64,000 bases of DNA from Gaiellales bacterium (GTDB taxonomy: Bacteria > Actinomycetota > Thermoleophilia > Gaiellales > JAICJC01): positions 1 through 64,000 of the forward strand of contig DASUHM010000018.1 in assembly GCA_036273515.1 (NCBI GenBank), read 5' to 3'. A program made the position numbers and the translations under genes. Below the pieces are notes generated by a model. That model saw only the letters and a program-made list of their open reading frames with translations. It had not been told where the DNA came from and searched no databases. Position 1 is the first letter of the stretch. Each line of letters opens with the position of its first letter. Below, piece by piece: positions 11,476-37,104 of the stretch.

Positions 11476-11564
11476 GGCGGGGTGGCGGAGCGGTTGAACG
11501 CACCGGTCTTGAAAACCGGCATCGGGGGCAACCTCGATCGTGGGTTCGAATCCCACCCCCGCCG
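11476..11564 (+). tRNA. tRNA-Ser (anticodon UGA)
   Basis: 89 nt. Acceptor GGCGGGG pairs with CCCCGCC (11557-11563) and G11564 is the discriminator. Anticodon stem CCGGT/ACCGG encloses the loop CTTGAAA, so the anticodon is TGA (11510-11512). A long variable arm precedes the T arm (GTGGGTTCGAATCCCAC), as in class II tRNAs. CCA is not encoded. A short hairpin (11463-11479) overlaps the 5' end. The mosaic region begins right after it. Confidence 0.97.
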
Positions 11565-12101
11565 CTCCAAACCGCGACGATCCGCATGGTTGAGCCGAAC
11601 CTCGAGGCCACCAGCCAGGACTCGTGGACGCCTAGCCAGTCCTCAGGAACCCCAGACCGGCCAACCATGCCGACGAATCACAGTCGCGCACACGATCGCG
11701 CGGCACGCCGACGTCCTCGACGGGCGCAACCGGGCTGGTGCGGCCATGACGGTCGGGCCGCAAAGCCGAGTGCTGGCGCATGGTCCGTATCGCGCTTCGA
11801 TTGGACGACCGCGTCGCGACCGCCTCCACGATCGCGAAAGTGGCGTCCGGGCTCACGCTCCTCCTCCTCGCGGTCCCGCAACAGAGACGCGACCGTAGTT
11901 CTCCGACGCGGCGCCCGTGGCAACCGTCCACGCCGGCCGAAAAGGCGCGCTGTTCACCGAGTGAAACCCCGCCTCCCAGCAACACCCGTAGCCGGTCGCC
12001 GTCCCAGGCGAACCATCCGCGAAAGTCGGGAGGCGGTCTCGCACGACGCCGCGTGACAGGGTTCGTCTTCGCTGCGAAACGCTCCTCCGGATCGACGCCG
12101 G
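11565..12101. other. Gene-poor stretch after tRNA-Ser
   Basis: Reading frames cross this stretch on both strands, but none has a ribosome site, sensible composition or a recognisable domain. No copy of the tRNA 3' end was found by eye, so there is no direct integration-site evidence. It may be eroded island DNA. Confidence 0.5.
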
Positions 12102-13145
12102 TTAGATCGAAGTGGGTGGCTGGCGGGCCGCGGAGCGGTCGTCGGGGTGCCGATCCGCTTCGAGGGCGGTCTCGCTCCGAGCCTGTTGACCTCGCAGGGT
12201 GTCGCTGGGCTTGGTGCCATAGGCGTCGCGGTAGTGCTGTGCGAAGCGGCTGGGACTGGCGAAGCCCCAGCGGTAGGCGACGTCGGTGACGGTGAGGCCG
12301 TCCGCGGCCTCCTGGAGATCCTGGTGGGCGCAGTCGAGTCGGACTCGGCGGAGGTACGCCATAGGGGTAGTGCCGGCTTGCCGTCGGAAGGCGAGTTGGA
12401 CGGCTCGCGGGGTGACGTAGGCGGCGCGGGCGATGTCCTGCAGGGTGATGTCGAGATCCGGGTTGGCTTCGATGAATGCCACCGCTCGGCGCAGGGTGCC
12501 AGGGCGGCTGTCAGGACCGTCGTCCCGTGTGGGGGTGGTGACGGCGGTGTTGGGGAACGTGGCCAGAGCAGTAGCCGCGATCAAGCGGGCCGCGGCGCCG
12601 ACCACAAGCGGAGCGGCGGCGGCGTCGGCGTCGTCGAGCAAGCCATCGACGAACCGGCAGACGGCGCGCCACCGCTGAGCTGTTCCTTTCATGGGCGTGT
12701 AGGACAGGAACTCCACTGGCGCAGATTCATGATCAGGGTCGGTGTTGGTCATCTCGTTGAGCAGCGAGATAGGCACGGTTGTGGTCAGAACGCGGATGTC
12801 GTGCGTGCTTGACGCGAAGTCGGCGCTCGGATGGTTGGCGATGAAGAGATCCGCAGGTCCATACCGGTACACGTTCTCGCCGTGCTCGATCTCGAAGGTG
12901 CCCTCAAGAAGCGTGTCGAAGACGACATAGTCGTCGCCCGTGACCATGTACGAGACATCTCCCGGGGCGCGAGCCCGGCCCAGGATGATCGGGCCCGCCT
13001 GGATCATGGAGATGGTCAGTGCGCTTCCGACCGGGTTTGGCTGGTCCACCGTGACCCGCCAGCCGTACGTGTCGTCCAAGAAGTCCGTCGCCTCCGACAT
13101 GTCCGTCGTGGCGAACTCGAACCGATTGGGAGGAATGAAGGGCAT
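12102..13145 (-). CDS. AraC-family transcriptional regulator
   Basis: 347 aa from the ATG at 13145; an upstream TTG at 13205 is less likely. The N-terminal half resembles AraC-binding-like cupin domains. The C-terminal third (about 245-335) has the two-HTH AraC domain: ITLQDIARAAYVTPRAVQLAFRR, then the second helix-turn-helix ending in the WGFASPSRFAQHYRDAYG signature. It lies alone between gene-poor segments and its target genes are unknown. Confidence 0.88.
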   Translation of the reverse strand: MPFIPPNRFEFATTDMSEATDFLDDTYGWRVTVDQPNPVGSALTISMIQAGPIILGRARAPGDVSYMVTGDDYVVFDTLLEGTFEIEHGENVYRYGPADLFIANHPSADFASSTHDIRVLTTTVPISLLNEMTNTDPDHESAPVEFLSYTPMKGTAQRWRAVCRFVDGLLDDADAAAAPLVVGAAARLIAATALATFPNTAVTTPTRDDGPDSRPGTLRRAVAFIEANPDLDITLQDIARAAYVTPRAVQLAFRRQAGTTPMAYLRRVRLDCAHQDLQEAADGLTVTDVAYRWGFASPSRFAQHYRDAYGTKPSDTLRGQQARSETALEADRHPDDRSAARQPPTSI

Positions 13146-27187: not shown

Positions 27188-29548
27188 ATGAGAGAGTACG
27201 GGGGGACGCTGCGGGCGGTTCCGACCGGCCCGGTGAGCGGCCTGGTAGGCCAGGTGCTCCTGCTCACGGCTCTCACGGCAACGGTCGGGCTCGGCCCGGC
27301 CGGCTGGGTGGCCGGGCTGGCATCGGCCGCCCTGGTCGACGTGACGCTCGCCCACGGGCTGATCCGCGACCCGACCGAACGGCTCGGCCCGGCCGGGTGG
27401 GTCACGCTTGCCCGGGCCACGCTCGCGCTCGGCGTCGCCGCGCTCGCGGCCGACTCCTTCGTCCGCCCGGTGCCCGTCGCCCTGCTCGTCGGGCTCGCCG
27501 TCGTCGCGCTGGCCCTCGACTACGTCGACGGCGAGGTGGCCCGCCGCACCGGCACCGTGTCCGAGCTCGGCGCCCGCCTCGACGGCGAGGTCGACGCGTT
27601 CCTGATCCTGGCGCTGAGCGTGTACGTCGCCCCCATCGCCGGCGCCTGGGTGCTCACGATCGGCGCCGCGCGCTACGCCTTCCTCGCGGCCGGCTGGGCG
27701 CTCCCCTGGATGCGGGCGCGGCTGCCGCTGCGCGACTGGCGCAAGACCGTCGCCGCGACCCAGGGCATCGTGCTCGCCGTCGCGGCGGCAGACGTCCTGC
27801 CGCTCGTGCTCGTCCAGGCCGCACTGGCAGTCGCGCTGGCGATGCTGGCCGAGTCGTTCGGCCGGGACGTATTCTGGCTCTGGCGGCGCAGGCGCAGCGG
27901 CGCGACGGCCCCGGCACCCGGGTCGCAGCCCGCCCCTCGCCGCCGGGGCCGCCGGGCGATCGGCATCGCGTTCACGGTCGCGGCCGTCGTGGTCGTCTGG
28001 GGCGCGCTCGTCGCTCCCAACCGGCCCAACGACATCGGCTTCGATGCGTTCGCCCGCGTGCCGCTCGAGGGCCTGATCGTCATCGCGCTCGCGCTCGTCC
28101 TGCCCCGCAACGCCCGCCGCGTGCTGGCCTGGATCGTCGGCCCGCTGCTGGGCGCGCTGGTCGTCCTGAAGCTGCTCGATGTCGGCTTCTTCACCGCCTT
28201 CGACCGGCCGTTCAACCCGGTGGAGGACTGGCGCTACACGTCGATCGGGATCGAGACGCTCCGCGCGTCGATCGGCCGCACCCGCGCCGACCTGGTCGTC
28301 GCCGGCGTCGTGGTCGTCGTGATCGCTGCGCTCGTCCTGCCCACGCTGGCGGTGCTACGCGTCACCCGGGTCGCATCCGGCCATCGCAGCATCTCCACGC
28401 GGGCGATCGCCGCCCTCGGCGTCGTCTGGGCGCTGTGCTGGCTGGTGGGGGCGCAGCTGGCCGGCGAGCCGATCGCCTCGACCAGCGCCGCCGAGCTGGC
28501 GGTCCACGAGGTGCGCGCGGTCGAGGCGGGCCTCCAGGACGGCGCCCGCTACGCCGCCGCGATCCACCATGACCGCTACGCCCACACGCCCGCTAGCCGG
28601 CTGCTGACCCGCCTCAGCGGCAAGGACGTGCTCGTCGTCTTCGACGAGAGCTACGGCAAGGTCGCCGTCCAGGGCTCGTCGTTCTCGCCCCAGGTGGACG
28701 CCACCCTGGCCGCCGGCACCCGCCAGCTGCGCGCCGCCGGGTTCTCGTCCGCCAGCGGCTGGCTCACCTCGCCGACCTTCGGCGGCACCAGCTGGCTGGC
28801 CCACTCCACGCTCCAGTCCGGGTCGTGGGTCGACAACCAGGGCCGCTACGACGAGCTGATGGCGAGCAACCGCTTCACGCTCGGCGACGCGTTCAAGCGG
28901 GCCGGCTGGCGGATCGTCGACGACATCCCGTCGGACGACCGTCCCTGGAGCGACGGGAAGTCGTTCTACCACTTCGACAAGATCTACAACCGCCTGAACG
29001 TCGGCTATCACGGGCCGACCTACGCGTACGCCTCGATGCCCGACCAGTACACGTATCTGGCGCTCCAGCGGCTCGAGCTGGCGAAGCGCCATCGCAAGCC
29101 CCTGTTCGCCGAGATCGACACCGTGTCGAGCCACGAGCCGTGGACGCGCATCCCGCCGCTGATCAGCTGGAGCGAGGTCGGCGACGGCTCCATCTACAAG
29201 ACGCTCCCCGTCGACACGACCGGATCGAACGATGCCGGCGAGGGCTACGGGCACTCGATCGTGTACTCGCTTCAGGCGCTCTTCTCGTACATCGAGAACT
29301 ACGGCCGCAAGAACCTCGTCGTCGTCGTGCTGGGCGACCACCAGCCCGCCCACGTCGTCTCCGGCTACGGCGTCGACCACGACGTGCCCATCTCGATCAT
29401 CGCCCACGACCCGTCGGTGTTCCGGCAGATCGCGCCCTGGGGCTGGGCGAGCGGCATGCGCCCGAGCTCGCACGGGCCGGTCTGGCGCATGAGCGCCTTC
29501 CGCAACCGCTTCCTCGGGGCATTCGGCTCCCGCCCCACGACCCCGTAG
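27188..29548 (+). CDS. CDP-alcohol phosphotransferase / sulfatase-fold fusion
   Basis: 786 aa. N-terminal part is a CDP-alcohol phosphatidyltransferase: D111-x2-D114-G115-x2-A118-R119-x8-G128-x3-D132-x3-D136 fits the catalytic signature exactly. Several membrane helices lie at about 10-470. The C-terminal part (from about 475) is an alkaline-phosphatase/sulfatase-fold domain, as in LTA-synthase-like enzymes, with VLVVFDESYGK and VVVLGDHQPA. Probably makes and then modifies a phospholipid head group or polymer at the membrane. First gene of the long operon, 7 bp before the acyltransferase. Confidence 0.85.
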   Translation: MREYGGTLRAVPTGPVSGLVGQVLLLTALTATVGLGPAGWVAGLASAALVDVTLAHGLIRDPTERLGPAGWVTLARATLALGVAALAADSFVRPVPVALLVGLAVVALALDYVDGEVARRTGTVSELGARLDGEVDAFLILALSVYVAPIAGAWVLTIGAARYAFLAAGWALPWMRARLPLRDWRKTVAATQGIVLAVAAADVLPLVLVQAALAVALAMLAESFGRDVFWLWRRRRSGATAPAPGSQPAPRRRGRRAIGIAFTVAAVVVVWGALVAPNRPNDIGFDAFARVPLEGLIVIALALVLPRNARRVLAWIVGPLLGALVVLKLLDVGFFTAFDRPFNPVEDWRYTSIGIETLRASIGRTRADLVVAGVVVVVIAALVLPTLAVLRVTRVASGHRSISTRAIAALGVVWALCWLVGAQLAGEPIASTSAAELAVHEVRAVEAGLQDGARYAAAIHHDRYAHTPASRLLTRLSGKDVLVVFDESYGKVAVQGSSFSPQVDATLAAGTRQLRAAGFSSASGWLTSPTFGGTSWLAHSTLQSGSWVDNQGRYDELMASNRFTLGDAFKRAGWRIVDDIPSDDRPWSDGKSFYHFDKIYNRLNVGYHGPTYAYASMPDQYTYLALQRLELAKRHRKPLFAEIDTVSSHEPWTRIPPLISWSEVGDGSIYKTLPVDTTGSNDAGEGYGHSIVYSLQALFSYIENYGRKNLVVVVLGDHQPAHVVSGYGVDHDVPISIIAHDPSVFRQIAPWGWASGMRPSSHGPVWRMSAFRNRFLGAFGSRPTTP

Positions 29549-29555
29549 CCTTCCG

Positions 29556-30725
29556 ATGACGATGCGCCCGGCAGGTCAGGCAGGAAGACGGATCGCAGGT
29601 CTGGACGGCGTGCGCGGCCTGGCCGCGCTCTACGTCGTCGTCAACCACATCTTCCTGCGCGCGTTCCCCGGCTACCCGGCCGACACGGCGCCGTTCTGGG
29701 CCGCCTGGTTCATCTACGGGCGCTTCGCGGTCGTCGTCTTCATCGTCCTCTCCGGCCTGTCGCTGACGCTGGCGCCGGCCCGCAACGGCTGGCGCCTCGA
29801 CGCGCTGTCGCGGTTCGCGCGGCGGCGGGCCTGGCGGATCCTGCCGCCGTACTGGGCCGCGCTCGTCTTCAGCCTCCTCGTGGCCTGGCTGATCGTCCCG
29901 CCGCCCGGCGAGGGCGCCCCCGACGTCTGGTCGGTGCTCGTGAACGGCCTCCTCGTCCAGAACATCGTCGCCGCGCCCACCCCCAACCGCGCGTTCTGGT
30001 CGATTGCCGTCGAGGCGCAGCTCTACCTGCTCTTCCCGCTGCTGCTCCTGCTCGTGCGCCGCCGCGGCGCGATCGCGATGGTCGCCGCCGTCACGGCCGT
30101 CGTCGCCGCGATCGGCATCGTCGGCCCGCACGTCGCCGGGATCGACACGTTCGTGATCCAGTCGGCGCCCGACCTGGCGGCGCTCTTCGCCGTCGGCGTC
30201 CTGGCCGGCGGGATCGTGATCGCGAGCGAGCGGCGGCGGTCGTGGCCGTGGGCCTGGATCGCGCTCGCCGCCGCGACGCCGGTGCTGGCGACGATCGCGT
30301 GGCGGGGCTCGGTGTGGACGCTCGACCGGCTCTACTGGGTCGATCTCGCCCTCGGGCCGGCCATCGCCTGCCTGCTGGCGGCGCTCGTCACCGGCCGGCC
30401 GGCGCCGCTCCTGCGCGCGCTCGACTCGCGACCGATCCGAAGCCTCGGCCTCTCGTCGTACAGCCTCTACCTGGTTCACGGGCCGATCGTGGTCGTCGTG
30501 TACGAGAAGGTCGTGGCCGGCCGCGTCGGCCACGGCGCGCCGTCGTTCCTGCTCGCGGTGGCGCTGATCGTGCCGCTCGCGATCCTCTTCGCGCGCGGCT
30601 TCGCGGCCGTGTTCGAGATCCCGTTTCAGCGCCATCGCGGCTGGCCCGGCTGGCGCCTCCCGGCGCCCCCCCGGGGCGAATCCACCCGCGTCGGACGCGC
30701 GTACTCGCGGAGAGCTGCATCGTGA
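29556..30725 (+). CDS. Acyltransferase 3 family membrane enzyme (OafA-like)
   Basis: 389 aa with about 10 membrane helices. The N-terminal [21 protein letters not shown] carries the conserved catalytic His, and [20 protein letters not shown] is the second family signature. Adds acyl groups to cell-surface glycans, lipids or small molecules. Its TGA overlaps the GTG of the dehydrogenase gene, linking it to the downstream cluster. Confidence 0.9.
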
Positions 30726-31747
30726 TCGAAGCGCGCGAACCGATGGCACAGGAACACGAGATGGCACACGCGTTCTGGCTGCGGAGCCCCGGCTGCGGGG
30801 AGATCCGGCCGGCCCCGCTGCCGCGGCCCGGCGACGACGACGTCCTCGTGCGCACCGTCCGCTCGGGCGTCAGCCGGGGCACCGAGCTGCGCGTGTTCCG
30901 CGGCGGCGTGCCGCCCGAGCAGTACGCGACGATGCGGGCGCCATTCCAGGAGGGGGAGTTCCCGGCTCCGGTCAAGTACGGCTACCTGAGCGTCGGCGCC
31001 GTCGAGGAAGGCCCGCGCAGCCTGCGCGGCCGCACCGTCTTCTGCCTCTACCCGCACCAGACCGCCTACGTCGTCCCGGCCGCCTCCGTGTCCGTCGTTC
31101 CCGAGGACGTGCCGCCCGAGCGCGCCGTCCTCGCCGGCACCGTCGAGACGGCCGTGAACGCGCTCTGGGACGCCGCGCCGATGGTCGGCGACCGCGTCGC
31201 CGTCGTCGGCGCCGGGATGCTCGGGTGCTGCGTCGCCCGCCTGCTGGGCCGGATCCCCGGCGTGGAGGTCACGCTCGTCGACGTCGATGCCGCCCGCGGC
31301 GCCGTCGCCGGCGCGCTCGGTGCGGGATTCGCGCTGCCCGCCGACGCCGCCGGCAGCCGCGAGCTCGTCTTCCACACGAGCGCGACGGCCGCGGGCCTGC
31401 AGCGCTCGCTCGAGCTGCTCGCGCCCGAGGGCACCGTGATCGACCTCAGCTGGTACGGCGAGAAGGAGGTCACCCTGTCGCTCGGCGGCGCCTTCCATAC
31501 CGACCGGCTCCGCATCCGCTCGAGCCAGGTCGGCGCCGTCTCCCCCGCCCGGCGCGCGCGGCGCACGACGGCCGCCCGGCTGGCGCTCGCGCTCGACCTG
31601 CTGCGCGACCCCGCGTTCGACGCCCTCATCACGGGCGCCTCGCCGTTCGCCGAGCTGCCCGACGTCATGGCCCGGCTGGCGGCGGGGAACCTGCCGGCGC
31701 TGTGCCACACCATCACCTACGACGGAGCCGCGCCGTGTACAGCGTGA
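30722..31747 (+). CDS. Zinc-type alcohol dehydrogenase family protein
   Basis: 341 aa from the coupled GTG; ATG at 30761 (328 aa) is possible and has AGGAAC upstream. MDR fold: GroES-like N-terminus with the [14 protein letters not shown] signature, Rossmann motif [18 protein letters not shown], and a C-terminal catalytic return. The usual zinc-ligand Cys after VSRGTE is absent, as in several biosynthetic members of this subfamily. Likely an NAD(P)-dependent redox step on the cluster's product. Confidence 0.8.
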
Positions 31748-32133
31748 CCGTCCGCGACCACATGATGATCGCGCACAGCCTCCGCGGCGAGGTGTTCGGG
31801 CCGGCCCAGGGTCTCCACGGCGCGACCTACGTGATCGACGCCACCTTCCGCCGGGCGGCCCTCGACGAGAACGGGATCGTCGTCGACATCGGCCGGGCGG
31901 CCGCGGAGCTCCATGCCGTCGTCGAGGGGCTGACCTACCGGAACCTCGACGCCGAGCCCGGCCTCGCGGGCGAGAACACGACGACGGAGGTGCTCGCGCG
32001 GGTGATCGCCGACCGGCTCGCCGAACGGGTGCACGACGGCGCGCTGGGCGCGGGCGCCGGCGGTCTCGACAGCCTCGTCATCACCTTGCACGAGTCGCAT
32101 GTCGCCTGGGCGAGCTACGAGCGGCCGCTATGA
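31735..32133 (+). CDS. PTPS/QueD-fold protein lacking the catalytic triad
   Basis: 132 aa, normal length for 6-pyruvoyl-tetrahydropterin synthase / 6-carboxy-tetrahydropterin synthase. Zinc-site His H14 (MIAHSL) and H28 are kept, but HGH is HGA, the catalytic Cys before it is absent, and the usual DH dyad before the LN motif is LT (GLTYRNLD). The substrate-holding NTTTE and LHESH motifs remain. It may bind a pterin-like compound but cannot use the standard chemistry. GTG at 31735 overlaps the preceding gene by 13 bases; a GTG at 31744 is the alternative. Confidence 0.85.
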
Positions 32134-33188
32134 GGGACGTGCACGTCATCGTTCCCGGCGGCTACGACGACCCGGCCCGGCCGAGCGGCGGCAACACCTA
32201 CGACCGGCGGGTGTGCGAGGGCCTCGCGGCGCAGGGCTGGCCGGTCGTGGTGCATGCCGTGCCCGGGTCGTGGCCGCATCCCAACGCAGCGGCACACGCC
32301 CTCCTGGCGGACGTCGTGGGCCGGATCCCCGACGATGCCCTCGTGCTGCTCGACGGCCTGGTCGCGTCGACCGCGCCCGAGGTGCTCGTGCCCCAGGCGC
32401 AGCGCCTGCGCCTGGTCGCGCTCGTCCACATGCCGCTCGGCCGGCGCCAGGCGGAGGCCGTCGCGCGCGAGCGGGAGGGCGCCGTGCTCTCGAGCGCGAG
32501 GGCCGTCGTGACGACGAGCGAGTGGGCGCGGCGCACGCTGCTCGCGTTGTACGGCCTGGCGGCGGAGCGGGTGCGGGTCGCCGAGCCGGGTGTCGATGCC
32601 GCCGACCTGGCGCCGGGCACGGCCACTGCGGGCGCGCTCCTGTGCGTCGCCGCCGTGACGCCCGGGAAGGGCCACGACGTGCTGCTCGACGCGCTCTCGA
32701 CGATGCCGGAGCTGCGCTGGCATTGCCGCTGCGTCGGCAGCCTCGACCGCGACCCCGCATACGCCCGGCGGCTGCGGCTGCGCAGCGCCGATCTCGGGCT
32801 CGGGCAGCGCCTGTCGTTCCCGGGGCCGGGGGCGGGCGCCGAGCTCGACCGCAGCTACGCCGCCGCCGACCTGCTGGTGCTCGCCTCGCGCGGCGAGACG
32901 TACGGCATGGTCGTCACCGAGGCGCTCGCCCGCGGCCTGCCCGTGATCGCAGCCGACGTGGGCGGCGTGCCCGAGGCCCTCGGCCACGCCGGCGACGGCT
33001 CGCGGCCGGGCGCACTCGTGCCGCCCGACGACCCGGCCGGGCTCGGCGCCGCGCTTCGCGCCTGGCTCGGCGATGCCGACCTGCGGCACAGGTGGCGCCG
33101 CGCGGCCCAGGAGCGGCGCGCGGCGCTCGAGCCGTGGTCGGCCACGACGTCGACGCTTGCGGCCGTCCTCCAGGGAGCCGCCCCGTGA
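32130..33188 (+). CDS. GT4-family glycosyltransferase
   Basis: 352 aa, GT-B fold. Donor-binding motif [21 protein letters not shown] followed by [11 protein letters not shown], with the two conserved Glu of GT4 retaining enzymes. The N-terminus has [20 protein letters not shown], typical of acceptor domains. Transfers a nucleotide-sugar residue; acceptor probably the cluster's small molecule (inference). ATG overlaps the PTPS stop (ATGA). Confidence 0.88.
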
Positions 33189-34024
33189 GCGTCGAGACGA
33201 TCCGCGTCAGCACCGAATGGCTCGACCTGCGCGAGGGCGCCGATGCCGCTGCCCGCTCCCGCGAGCTCGTCGGCGAGCTCGGACGCCACCTTCCGGCGAG
33301 CGGCGTGCAGGTGATCCACGACCTCGCCTGCGGCACGGGCGCGATGGGCAGGTGGCTCGCGCCGCTGCTCCCCGGCCGGCAGCACTGGGTGCTGCACGAC
33401 CGCGACGCCGACCTGCTCGACGTGGCCGCCGCCCGCTGCCCGGCGCCCGCGGCGGACGGGGCGCCGGTCGACGTCGAGACGCGCTGCTCCGACATCACCC
33501 GGCTCACCGCGGACGACCTGGGCGGGACCGGGCTCATCACCGCCTCTGCGCTGCTCGACCTGCTCACCCGTGACGAGCTCGACGACCTCCTCGACGTCTG
33601 CCTCGCCGCCAAGTGCCCGCTCCTGCTGACGCTCTCCGTGGCCGGCCACGTCGAGCTGGCACCGGCGGATCTGCTGGACGCCCGGGTGGCGGCCGCGTTC
33701 GACGCACACCAGCGGCGGATGACGGGCCGCGGCCGCCTGCTCGGCCCCGACGCCGTCGCCGCAGCCGTCGCAGAGCTCTCGGCGGCCGGAAGCCGGGTGC
33801 TCGTCAGGCGCAGCGCCTGGCGGCTCGGCGCCGCCGAGGCCGGGCTCGCGGCGGCGTGGCTCCGCGGCTGGATCGCGGCGGCGTGCGAGCAGGAGCCGGA
33901 GCTCGCCGACGAGATCGGTTCGTACGCGCACGGCCGCCTGGCCGCGGCACAGGTGGGGCGGCTGGCCGTGACGGTCGGCCACGCCGATCTGCTCGCCCTG
34001 CCCCGCGATCGGGAGGCGGCATGA
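33185..34024 (+). CDS. Class I SAM-dependent methyltransferase
   Basis: 279 aa. Motif I is VIHDLACGTGAMGRWLAPLL (about 42-61), then VLHDRDADLL as the acidic post-I loop. The rest is a Rossmann methyltransferase with a helical C-terminal extension. GTG overlaps the preceding stop by 4 bases. Acceptor unknown, presumably an intermediate of this operon. Confidence 0.82.
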   Translation: MSVETIRVSTEWLDLREGADAAARSRELVGELGRHLPASGVQVIHDLACGTGAMGRWLAPLLPGRQHWVLHDRDADLLDVAAARCPAPAADGAPVDVETRCSDITRLTADDLGGTGLITASALLDLLTRDELDDLLDVCLAAKCPLLLTLSVAGHVELAPADLLDARVAAAFDAHQRRMTGRGRLLGPDAVAAAVAELSAAGSRVLVRRSAWRLGAAEAGLAAAWLRGWIAAACEQEPELADEIGSYAHGRLAAAQVGRLAVTVGHADLLALPRDREAA

Positions 34025-34977
34025 GCCTGCGGGCCTGGCGCCGGGTGCGACTCTGGGGCGCCGCCGCCGTGCTTGCGGCGATCGTCTGGCGGCTCGGCAC
34101 CGGCCCGTTCCGCGACGGCATCGGCGCCGTCGACGCCCGCGTGCTCGCGGTCGGACTCGGTATCGGCCTCGTCACCACGGTCTGCTGCGCCTGGCGCTGG
34201 ACGGTCGTCGCGCGCGGCCTCGGCATCGAGCTCTCGCTGCCCGCGGCCGTGGCCGCCTACTACCGCTCGATCTTCCTCAACCTGACGCTGCCCGGCGGGG
34301 TCGTCGGCGACGTGCACCGCGGCGTCCGCCACGGCCGCGATGCCGGCGACGTCGGCCGCGGCCTGCGCGCGGTCGCCTGGGAGCGCACCGCCGGACAGGT
34401 CGTCCAGGCGCTGCTCACGCTCGCCGTCCTGCTCGCCCTGCCGTCGCCGGTGCGAACGTTCGTCGTCCCCATCGCAATTGGCGTCGCCGGAGCGACAATC
34501 GGCGTGGGGCTGCTGCTCGAGCGGGCCCGGCCGCGCCGCCGGTCGTGGTGGGCGCGGGCCCGCCGCGGCATCGCCCGCGACGTGCGCGCGGGGCTGCTCG
34601 CCCGGGGAGCGCTCCCGGTCGTCGCGCTGACGTCGGCGCTCGTCGTGATCGGCCACGCGCTCACGTTCCTCGTGGCCGCGCGGGCGGCCGGCGTCTCGGC
34701 GCCACCGGCCCGGATGCTGCCGCTGGCCCTGCTCGCCATGCTCGGGATGGTCGTCCCCGGGATCGCCGGCTGGGGCCCCCGCGAGGGCGCGACGGCGTGG
34801 GTGTTCGGCGCGGCCGGCCTGGGTGCGGGCCAGGGCGTCGCCACCGCCGTCGTCTACGGGGTGATGGTGCTCGTCGCCGCCCTTCCGGGCGCGCTCGTGC
34901 TGCTCGGCGGGCGGTTCGAGCCGCCGCTGCGCGCCCTCGTCGCCGGCGCCAAGACCGACGGAGTCGCCGATGCCTGA
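34021..34977 (+). CDS. LPG-synthase-TM/flippase-like membrane protein
   Basis: 318 aa with 7-8 membrane helices. Matches the lysylphosphatidylglycerol synthase transmembrane family (UPF0104, AglD-like): RSIFLNLTLPGGVVGDVHRG is diagnostic, and MVVPGIAGWGPREGATAW the second conserved patch. No aminoacyl-transferase domain is attached, so transport or flipping of a lipid or glycoconjugate is more likely than lysyl transfer. ATG overlaps the methyltransferase stop. Confidence 0.85.
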   Translation: MSLRAWRRVRLWGAAAVLAAIVWRLGTGPFRDGIGAVDARVLAVGLGIGLVTTVCCAWRWTVVARGLGIELSLPAAVAAYYRSIFLNLTLPGGVVGDVHRGVRHGRDAGDVGRGLRAVAWERTAGQVVQALLTLAVLLALPSPVRTFVVPIAIGVAGATIGVGLLLERARPRRRSWWARARRGIARDVRAGLLARGALPVVALTSALVVIGHALTFLVAARAAGVSAPPARMLPLALLAMLGMVVPGIAGWGPREGATAWVFGAAGLGAGQGVATAVVYGVMVLVAALPGALVLLGGRFEPPLRALVAGAKTDGVADA

Positions 34978-35659
34978 CCGCCCGTACACGCTGCTCTCGT
35001 GCAGCATGTCGATCGACGGCTATATCGCCGGCGCCGCGTCGCGGCTGCTGCTCTCGAACGGCGACGACTTCGACCGCGTCGACGCCGTGCGCGCGTCCTG
35101 CGACGCGATTCTCGTCGGCGCGGCAACGGTGCGGATCGACAACCCGCGCTTGCTCGTGCGCTCGCAGCGGCTGCGCGAGCGGCGGGCGGCCCACGGGCTG
35201 CCGCCGTCGCCGGCGAAGGTGACCGTGACCCGCCGCGCGCACCTCGACGCGCGGGCCGACTTCTTCACCGCCGGCGAGGCCGAGAAGCTCGTCTACTGCG
35301 CCAGCCCGCGCGTCGGCGACGCCCGCGCCCGGCTGGGAGAGGTCGCGACCGTCATCGACGGCGGCGACGGCGTCGAGATGCGGCGGCTGAGCGCCGACCT
35401 CTCCGCCCGCGGCGTCGAGCGGCTGATGGTCGAGGGCGGCGGCACCGTCCACACGCAGTTCCTGACCGCCGACCTCGTCGACGAGCTGCAGCTGGTCGTC
35501 GCGCCCGTCTTCGTCGGCGACTCCGACGCGCCCCGGTTCGTCCGCGACGGCACCTTCCCCTGGAACCCCGCCCGGCGGGCGCGGCTGGCCGAGGTCCAGC
35601 AGATCGGCGACGTGGTCCTGATGCGCTACGCGCTCTCCGCGCGCTTCGGCGACGGCTGA
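34970..35659 (+). CDS. RibD C-terminal-domain / DHFR-like reductase
   Basis: 229 aa. Matches the reductase half of RibD and DHFR-like NADPH enzymes: YTLLSCSMSIDGYIA, ILVGAATVRIDNPRLLVR and LMVEGGGTVHTQFLTADLVDEL. RibD reduces the ribosyl group of a pyrimidine in riboflavin synthesis. No deaminase domain and no rib genes are nearby, so a pathway-specific reductase is likely. It overlaps the preceding gene by 8 bases and ends the operon. Confidence 0.88.
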   Translation: MPDRPYTLLSCSMSIDGYIAGAASRLLLSNGDDFDRVDAVRASCDAILVGAATVRIDNPRLLVRSQRLRERRAAHGLPPSPAKVTVTRRAHLDARADFFTAGEAEKLVYCASPRVGDARARLGEVATVIDGGDGVEMRRLSADLSARGVERLMVEGGGTVHTQFLTADLVDELQLVVAPVFVGDSDAPRFVRDGTFPWNPARRARLAEVQQIGDVVLMRYALSARFGDG

Positions 35660-35689: not shown

Positions 35690-36484
35690 ATGGCCGATCC
35701 GCGCACGCCCCCAGGGGCGCTCGTCCTGGACATGGAGGGCGTCCTGCACGTCGACTGGGCCGCGCTCCCCGGAAGCGCCGAGGCGGTGCAGCGGTTCGCG
35801 GCCGCCGGCCTCGAGATCGCCGTCCTCACGAACACGACGGGCCGTACCCGCGCCGAGATCGCAGGGCGGCTGGCCGGGCTGGGCATGCCCGTGCCGGCGG
35901 AGCGGATCGTCACGTCGGCCTCGGCGACCGCCGAGCATCTGCGAAACGCCGCGCCCGCGCCCCGCGTGTTCGCCCTCGCCGAGCCCGGTGTGCTCGAGGA
36001 GTTCGCCGGGCTCGATCTCGTCGACCGGCCAGCCGACGCGGACACGATCGTGCTCGGCGGTCCCGACGGCCGCTGGACGTATGCGGCGCTGAACGAGGTG
36101 TTCGCCGCGCTCATGCGCGGCGCGGCGCTGGTGGCGATGCAGCGCAACCGCTGGTGGACGACGCGGGCCGGCCCGGCCCTCGACGCGGGCATGTTCGTCG
36201 CCGGCCTGGAGTACGCCGCCGGTGTCGAGGCGACCGTCATCGGCAAGCCGTCGCCGGCCATCTTCGCGACCGCGTGCGCGCTCGCGGGCGCCGATCCCGC
36301 CGAGGCGATGATGGTCGGCGACGACCTCGAGTCGGACCTCCGCCCGGCCGCCGCCCTGGGGATGGCGACGTGCCTCGTGCGGACGGGGAAGGGCGGGACG
36401 TTCACGCCCGCAGCCGGCGAGGTCGACATGCACGCCGACGATCTCGCGGCGGTGGCCGACGCGCTCGGCCTGCCCGCCGCCTGA
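35690..36484 (+). CDS. LHPP/HDHD2-like HAD-IIA phosphatase with variant motif I
   Basis: 264 aa. HAD-IIA cap arrangement: motif II in VLTNTTGRTRAEI, motif III GKPSPAIFATA and motif IV MMVGDDLESDLR. Motif I is LVLDMEGVLHVDW, so D14 is the nucleophile but the usual D+2 is Glu (E16). HDHD2 and LHPP also deviate at D+2 (Ser), and the following VLHVDWAALPGSAEAV is like theirs. Activity may be reduced or altered. Own leaderless promoter. Confidence 0.83.
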   Translation: MADPRTPPGALVLDMEGVLHVDWAALPGSAEAVQRFAAAGLEIAVLTNTTGRTRAEIAGRLAGLGMPVPAERIVTSASATAEHLRNAAPAPRVFALAEPGVLEEFAGLDLVDRPADADTIVLGGPDGRWTYAALNEVFAALMRGAALVAMQRNRWWTTRAGPALDAGMFVAGLEYAAGVEATVIGKPSPAIFATACALAGADPAEAMMVGDDLESDLRPAAALGMATCLVRTGKGGTFTPAAGEVDMHADDLAAVADALGLPAA

Positions 36485-36576
36485 CTCTCGGCGAATTACG
36501 GAGGGCGAGTCCGCGCCCGCCCCGACGCGCGCCTCCTCCGCCCGGCCGAAGATGGACGGGACCGAAGGAGGTGACG

Positions 36577-37104
36577 ATGCACGCGCTCATCGTCTACGAG
36601 TCGATGTACGGCAACACCCGCGCCGTCGCCGAGGCGATCGCGGAGGGCTTCGGCGACGGGGCGGACGTGCGCCACGTGCGGGCGGCGGGTGCCCCGGACG
36701 ACGAGGTCGACCTGCTCGTCGCCGGCGGCCCGACGCATATCCACGGGATGACCACGTCGCTCAGCCGGCACATGACCATCAAGGGTGCACAGGAGGACGG
36801 CCATGGCGAGATCGACCCGGACGCGGTCGACGCGCCCGGGCTGCGCCAGTGGCTGCGCGATCTCCCCCATCGCCCCGGCGGGATCGCGGCGGCGTTCGAC
36901 ACGCGGATCGACCGGTCCGCGACGGTGACGGGCACCGCGGCGCGTGGCGTCGCGAAGCGGCTCCGCCACCACGGCTACGAGGTCGGCTGGACCGAGAGCT
37001 TCTTCGTGGACGACGCGGAGGGGCCGCTCGCCGACGGCGAGCTGGAGCGCGCCCGCGGCTGGGGCGCGACGCTCCGCACGGCCGCCGTTCGCCACGCCGC
37101 GTGA
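36577..37104 (+). CDS. Flavodoxin-domain protein
   Basis: 175 aa. FMN phosphate loop YESMYGNTRAVAEAIAEGF at about residues 7-25, then DLLVAGGPTHIHGMT (50s loop). Cytoplasmic single-domain flavodoxin or flavoprotein of the kind found beside stress genes in actinobacteria; electron partners unknown. ATG follows GGAGG at 6 bases. A terminator follows 16 bases after the stop. Confidence 0.88.
   Translation: MHALIVYESMYGNTRAVAEAIAEGFGDGADVRHVRAAGAPDDEVDLLVAGGPTHIHGMTTSLSRHMTIKGAQEDGHGEIDPDAVDAPGLRQWLRDLPHRPGGIAAAFDTRIDRSATVTGTAARGVAKRLRHHGYEVGWTESFFVDDAEGPLADGELERARGWGATLRTAAVRHAA

Follow-up and report, generated by a model that had tools for sequence, protein, structure and literature searches.

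What does a PTPS/QueD-fold protein do once the residues that define its catalysis are gone? The window, a stretch of 64,000 nucleotides from a Gaiellales draft genome, carries such a gene at 31735-32133 on the + strand. It runs from a GTG start at 31735 to a stop at 32133, encodes 132 amino acids, and shares 13 bp with the gene before it and 4 bp with the one after it. No other PTPS-family protein was found in the window genome. A preliminary description of this DNA proposed that the fold had been kept for a different reaction on a pterin-like substrate, and the sections below take up what the protein is, where its relatives occur, and in which pathway it may act.

A PTPS-superfamily protein of the SCO6650 type

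Membership in the PTPS superfamily is clear from both the profile match and the fold. The protein matches Pfam PTPS (PF01242) with an E value of 9.3e-23 and 80.9 bits against a gathering cut-off of 22.4, and AF2 models it as a T-fold with a pLDDT of 92.5. A Foldseek search with this model gave 3d7j as the best match (TM 0.95), followed by structures of QueD and PTPS with TM values of about 0.6-0.8; the fold is thus retained, as had been supposed. The protein scores below the cut-offs of the NCBIfam models for QueD (38.1 against 89.25 bits) and for 6PTHBS.

Alignment to E. coli QueD, from which all residue equivalences here are taken, bears out the losses read earlier from the sequence, as does alignment with canonical members of the PTPS family. 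The catalytic Cys27 is replaced by A24, the Asp70-His71 dyad by T67-Y68, and the third zinc ligand, His33, by A30, while the other two zinc ligands, His16 and His31, remain as H14 and H28. The Cys, dyad and three zinc histidines that mark QueD (PTPS-I) are therefore not all present. Substrate-binding motifs had also been described as retained. The pterin-binding Glu110 is present as E120, and the P-T-[SA]-E motif reads T82-T83-T84-E85. In PTPS and QueD, the conserved Glu recognises the 2-amino group of the pterin.

Among solved structures, a phmmer search returned SCO6650 of Streptomyces coelicolor (3d7j; E 7.5e-59), with 97 of 132 residues identical (73% over the full length). The two proteins agree in kind at the lost and kept positions: Ala for the Cys, Ala for the third zinc His, no dyad, and the Glu in place. 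At the Asp70 position SCO6650 has N67 whereas the window protein has T67. By sequence, then, the window protein is an orthologue of SCO6650 and its kind is already known.

The losses are fixed across the clade

H14, A24, H28 and A30 are identical to the window protein in 99 of 99 SCO6650-type rows that cover these sites. The Asp70 position is Asn in 57 rows, Thr in 36 and other residues in the rest, without a single Asp; Tyr (99) or Phe (1) occupies the His71 position. By comparison, 32 other actinobacterial PTPS-family proteins show no variation at the Cys, the dyad or any of the three zinc histidines. Compared with six relatives, the window gene has dN/dS values of 0.14-0.37, with an excess of third-position changes. 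With the losses fixed throughout the relatives and dN/dS this low, the substitutions are neither chance nor decay, and the gene is under purifying selection. The type is widespread in actinobacteria; proteins with 56% identity or more turned up in 20 of the 396 genomes sampled from the phylum.

Purifying selection together with the invariant pterin-anchoring Glu points to a different role that involves a pterin-like substrate, and to this extent the preliminary reading stands. The novelty that it implied does not, since the structure of SCO6650, which shows these losses too, was determined and released in 2008.

A conserved operon links the gene to GTP cyclohydrolase II

In the window, the PTPS-like gene is the second gene of an operon on the + strand whose members overlap by 4-13 bp. 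It is preceded by an MDR-type oxidoreductase (30743-31747; 13-bp overlap), distant from L-threonine and sorbitol dehydrogenases and from BchC, and followed by a GT4 glycosyltransferase distantly related to MshA (32130-33188; 4-bp overlap), a SAM-dependent methyltransferase (Methyltransf_25; 33185-34024; 4-bp overlap), a membrane protein of the LPG_synthase_TM/flippase-like family (34021-34977; 4-bp overlap), and a RibD_C reductase (34970-35659). The best NCBIfam model for the reductase is the archaeal 2,5-diamino-6-ribosylaminopyrimidinone 5'-phosphate reductase, with a score below its cut-off.

Further genes flank the operon. On the upstream side, a gene at 27188-29548 (+) encodes a CDP-alcohol phosphatidyltransferase domain followed in the same protein by a C-terminal part in which motifs like those of the alkaline phosphatase superfamily (ESYG, GGTSW and LGDHQP) were recognised by eye only. 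This part had no Pfam, NCBIfam or PDB sequence match, and a single-sequence AF2 model, at a pLDDT of 36.8, did not confirm its fold. An acyltransferase family 3 gene (29556-30725, +) lies between it and the MDR gene, and also adjoins the cluster in two relatives known from MAGs (L002, L004). Downstream, a HAD gene at 35690-36484 was not found near the cluster in other loci. Two genes downstream of the operon, at about 36570-37104 (+), is a flavodoxin-like protein, VYESMYGNTRAVAEAIAEGF, in a frame different from that of the ORF scanned with Pfam.

Nearly all of the 80 public loci share the gene order, with the methyltransferase or RibD_C missing in some, and the MDR gene adjoins the PTPS-like gene in nearly all. 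Two further genes are conserved in other loci: a relative of the CDP-alcohol phosphatidyltransferase, mostly on the opposite strand, and a GTP cyclohydrolase II, which is linked to the PTPS-like gene in 69 of the 80; several of the remaining loci are incomplete stretches. GTP cyclohydrolase II is absent from the cluster in the window. The only copy in the window genome is part of a ribBA fusion adjacent to riboflavin synthase; the genome also holds seven RibD_C matches and two creatininase-family genes, both away from the cluster. The conserved neighbours of the PTPS-like gene suggest that its protein may act on a compound produced by GTP cyclohydrolase II, and the GT4, methyltransferase and flippase-like genes point to a product that is later decorated and transported.

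Most of the actinobacterial-type cluster is also present in a MAG labelled Burkholderiaceae (SCSG01000020.1, L003, 8016-15737), where a cytochrome-c-like ORF (11549-12133) separates the flippase-like gene from RibD_C. The presence of the cluster there reflects either horizontal transfer or a binning error.

Two mutually exclusive enzyme sets

The cluster-linked GTP cyclohydrolases II fall into two kinds according to the residue at the position of Tyr105 in E. coli RibA. Among 83 cluster loci, 36 carry an enzyme with Tyr, and RibD_C is present in every one (36/36); another 34 carry an enzyme with Met (32) or His (2), always together with a creatininase-family gene (34/34). The two sets are never mixed, and the remaining loci have no GTP cyclohydrolase II within the stretch examined. 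The S. tendae locus is of the Met/His-creatininase kind. Since the PTPS-like tree places the creatininase loci in one clade, the association probably reflects a single evolutionary event rather than many independent cases.

SCO6655, which has Met at the Tyr105 position, is said in a 2006 paper on GTP cyclohydrolase II to stop at the formamide. Creatininase-family proteins have other roles too, for example in mycofactocin clusters. One bacterial member of the family, BrbF, deformylates the formamide intermediate (PMC9478397). With a Met-type enzyme halting at the formamide and a deformylase of this family to follow, the two sets would fit two ways to one aminopyrimidine. SCO6655 is also listed among the S. 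coelicolor genes whose expression runs against predicted metabolic flux; the majority of these go up in stationary phase (PMC2853524), a pattern that fits a role outside riboflavin supply.

In one Streptomyces genome (L165:4300-5478) and one Amycolatopsis genome (L166:4475-5644), the closest RibD_C is located outside the cluster and is fused ahead of a deaminase domain, the reverse of the usual RibD order. The Streptomyces fusion may simply be a riboflavin enzyme, and the case for a Streptomyces RibD_C acting in trans as proof of the pathway is weakened by the nature of this copy.

A sister clade suggests the order of loss

A sister group from one actinobacterial family (f20, L103-L117), 38-43% identical, keeps all three zinc histidines but has Ala for the Cys and Tyr for His71 in 10 of 10 proteins each. 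It shares the FGPA and YRNLD-like motifs with the window type. Its gene order is RibD_C, MDR, PTPS-like and GT4 in 5 of 5 loci, and in the single locus analysed with Pfam a methyltransferase follows GT4; no CDP-alcohol phosphatidyltransferase or flippase-like gene was detected beside these loci. The tree joins the sister group to the SCO6650 type, against the canonical proteins, at 100/98 support; support for the sister group as a single clade is weak, at 46/20, and long branches separate the groups. Because the sister proteins keep the zinc ligands without Cys and dyad, the Cys and dyad were probably lost on entry into the pathway and zinc binding later, on the SCO6650 branch.

A proposed pathway and its alternatives

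We give about an even chance to the following reading: a metal-free, repurposed T-fold protein acts on a 2-amino-4-oxopyrimidine or pterin intermediate that derives from GTP cyclohydrolase II, the pathway ending in a glycosylated, methylated and probably exported compound. Read from the gene content of the cluster, the pathway would start from GTP, which GTP cyclohydrolase II would convert to 2,5-diamino-6-ribosylaminopyrimidinone 5'-phosphate, either directly or through the formamide and a creatininase-family deformylase. RibD_C could then reduce the sugar to a ribityl chain. This enzyme is similar to archaeal reductases that work ahead of deamination, so the 2-amino group should be retained in the intermediate. 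The MDR enzyme would oxidise a side-chain hydroxyl, and the PTPS-like protein, using E120 and nearby Thr residues to hold the 2-amino-4-oxopyrimidine head, may aid a metal-free step on the side chain, for example closure of the ring or tautomerisation to give a dihydropterin. Glycosylation and methylation of the product would follow, and probably its transfer across the membrane. A text search of the literature found no published pathway with this gene set.

The protein could instead be a non-catalytic binding or carrier subunit, a T-fold oligomer that presents a pyrimidine or pterin intermediate to the glycosyltransferase or the oxidoreductase. The loss of the known catalytic residues and of one zinc ligand while the binding Glu stays would agree with this, as would gene overlaps of the sort seen in operons for interacting proteins. 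However, the clade has many new residues that are invariant or nearly so (R7, D8, H9, R69, N70, D72, H122 and W125), which suggest a new active site, and we consider a purely binding role rather unlikely.

A bolder version of the catalytic reading, which we regard as improbable, is that a dedicated pterin, destined for an exported glycoconjugate, would be made without GTP cyclohydrolase I. GTP cyclohydrolase I forms the 1-amino-1-deoxy-2-ketose side chain by an Amadori rearrangement; here that same side chain would come from the combined action of GTP cyclohydrolase II, RibD_C and the MDR enzyme, and the metal-free PTPS-like protein would close the ring.

That the protein is a normal QueD/PTPS enzyme with substitute residues or another metal site seems very improbable. 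Five histidines are conserved within the clade (H9, H14, H28, H119 and H122) and could in principle form such a site, and H9 had been put forward as a replacement zinc ligand. Yet 18 of 33 canonical proteins likewise have His at the H9 position, so we rejected it as a compensating ligand. Moreover, SCO6650 was reportedly found by Spoonamore in 2008 to crystallise without zinc, to lack the triad and to show no PTPS activity, and none of the cluster neighbours is a queuosine gene.

Least credible of all, and rejected as a general explanation, is that the cluster replaces GTP cyclohydrolase I (FolE) in supplying folate pterins: although the window genome, a 96.6% complete draft, has HPPK and no FolE match, FolE is present in 25 of 28 cluster-bearing genomes, including the closest relative (L002, G401). 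In well-assembled cluster-bearing genomes HPPK is found in 18 of 18 and FolE in 17 of 18, so ordinary folate synthesis is already supplied, and the gap in the window draft is most likely missing sequence.

Comparison with known systems

What is new here is the conserved operon, the two exclusive GTP cyclohydrolase II enzyme sets and the zinc-keeping sister clade, which together yield a concrete proposal for the pathway that can be tested, and a probable sequence of steps by which the catalytic site was lost.

The nearest known system is SCO6650 itself (PDB 3d7j), which has its fold and its lost and kept functions in common with the window protein. The S. tendae PTPS-like protein is identical to SCO6650 at 131 of 132 positions and has the same neighbours as the window gene, but with a creatininase and a Met-type GTP cyclohydrolase II where the window cluster carries RibD_C. 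QueD (6-carboxytetrahydropterin synthase, PTPS-I) shares the T-fold, the pterin-binding Glu and two of the three zinc histidines; unlike QueD, the window protein has no Cys, Asp-His dyad or third zinc His, and no queuosine neighbours. PTPS-III and Plasmodium PTPS also lack the catalytic Cys. In these enzymes Cys is replaced by Glu and zinc is kept, whereas the window protein has Ala at the Cys position and has given up the dyad as well.
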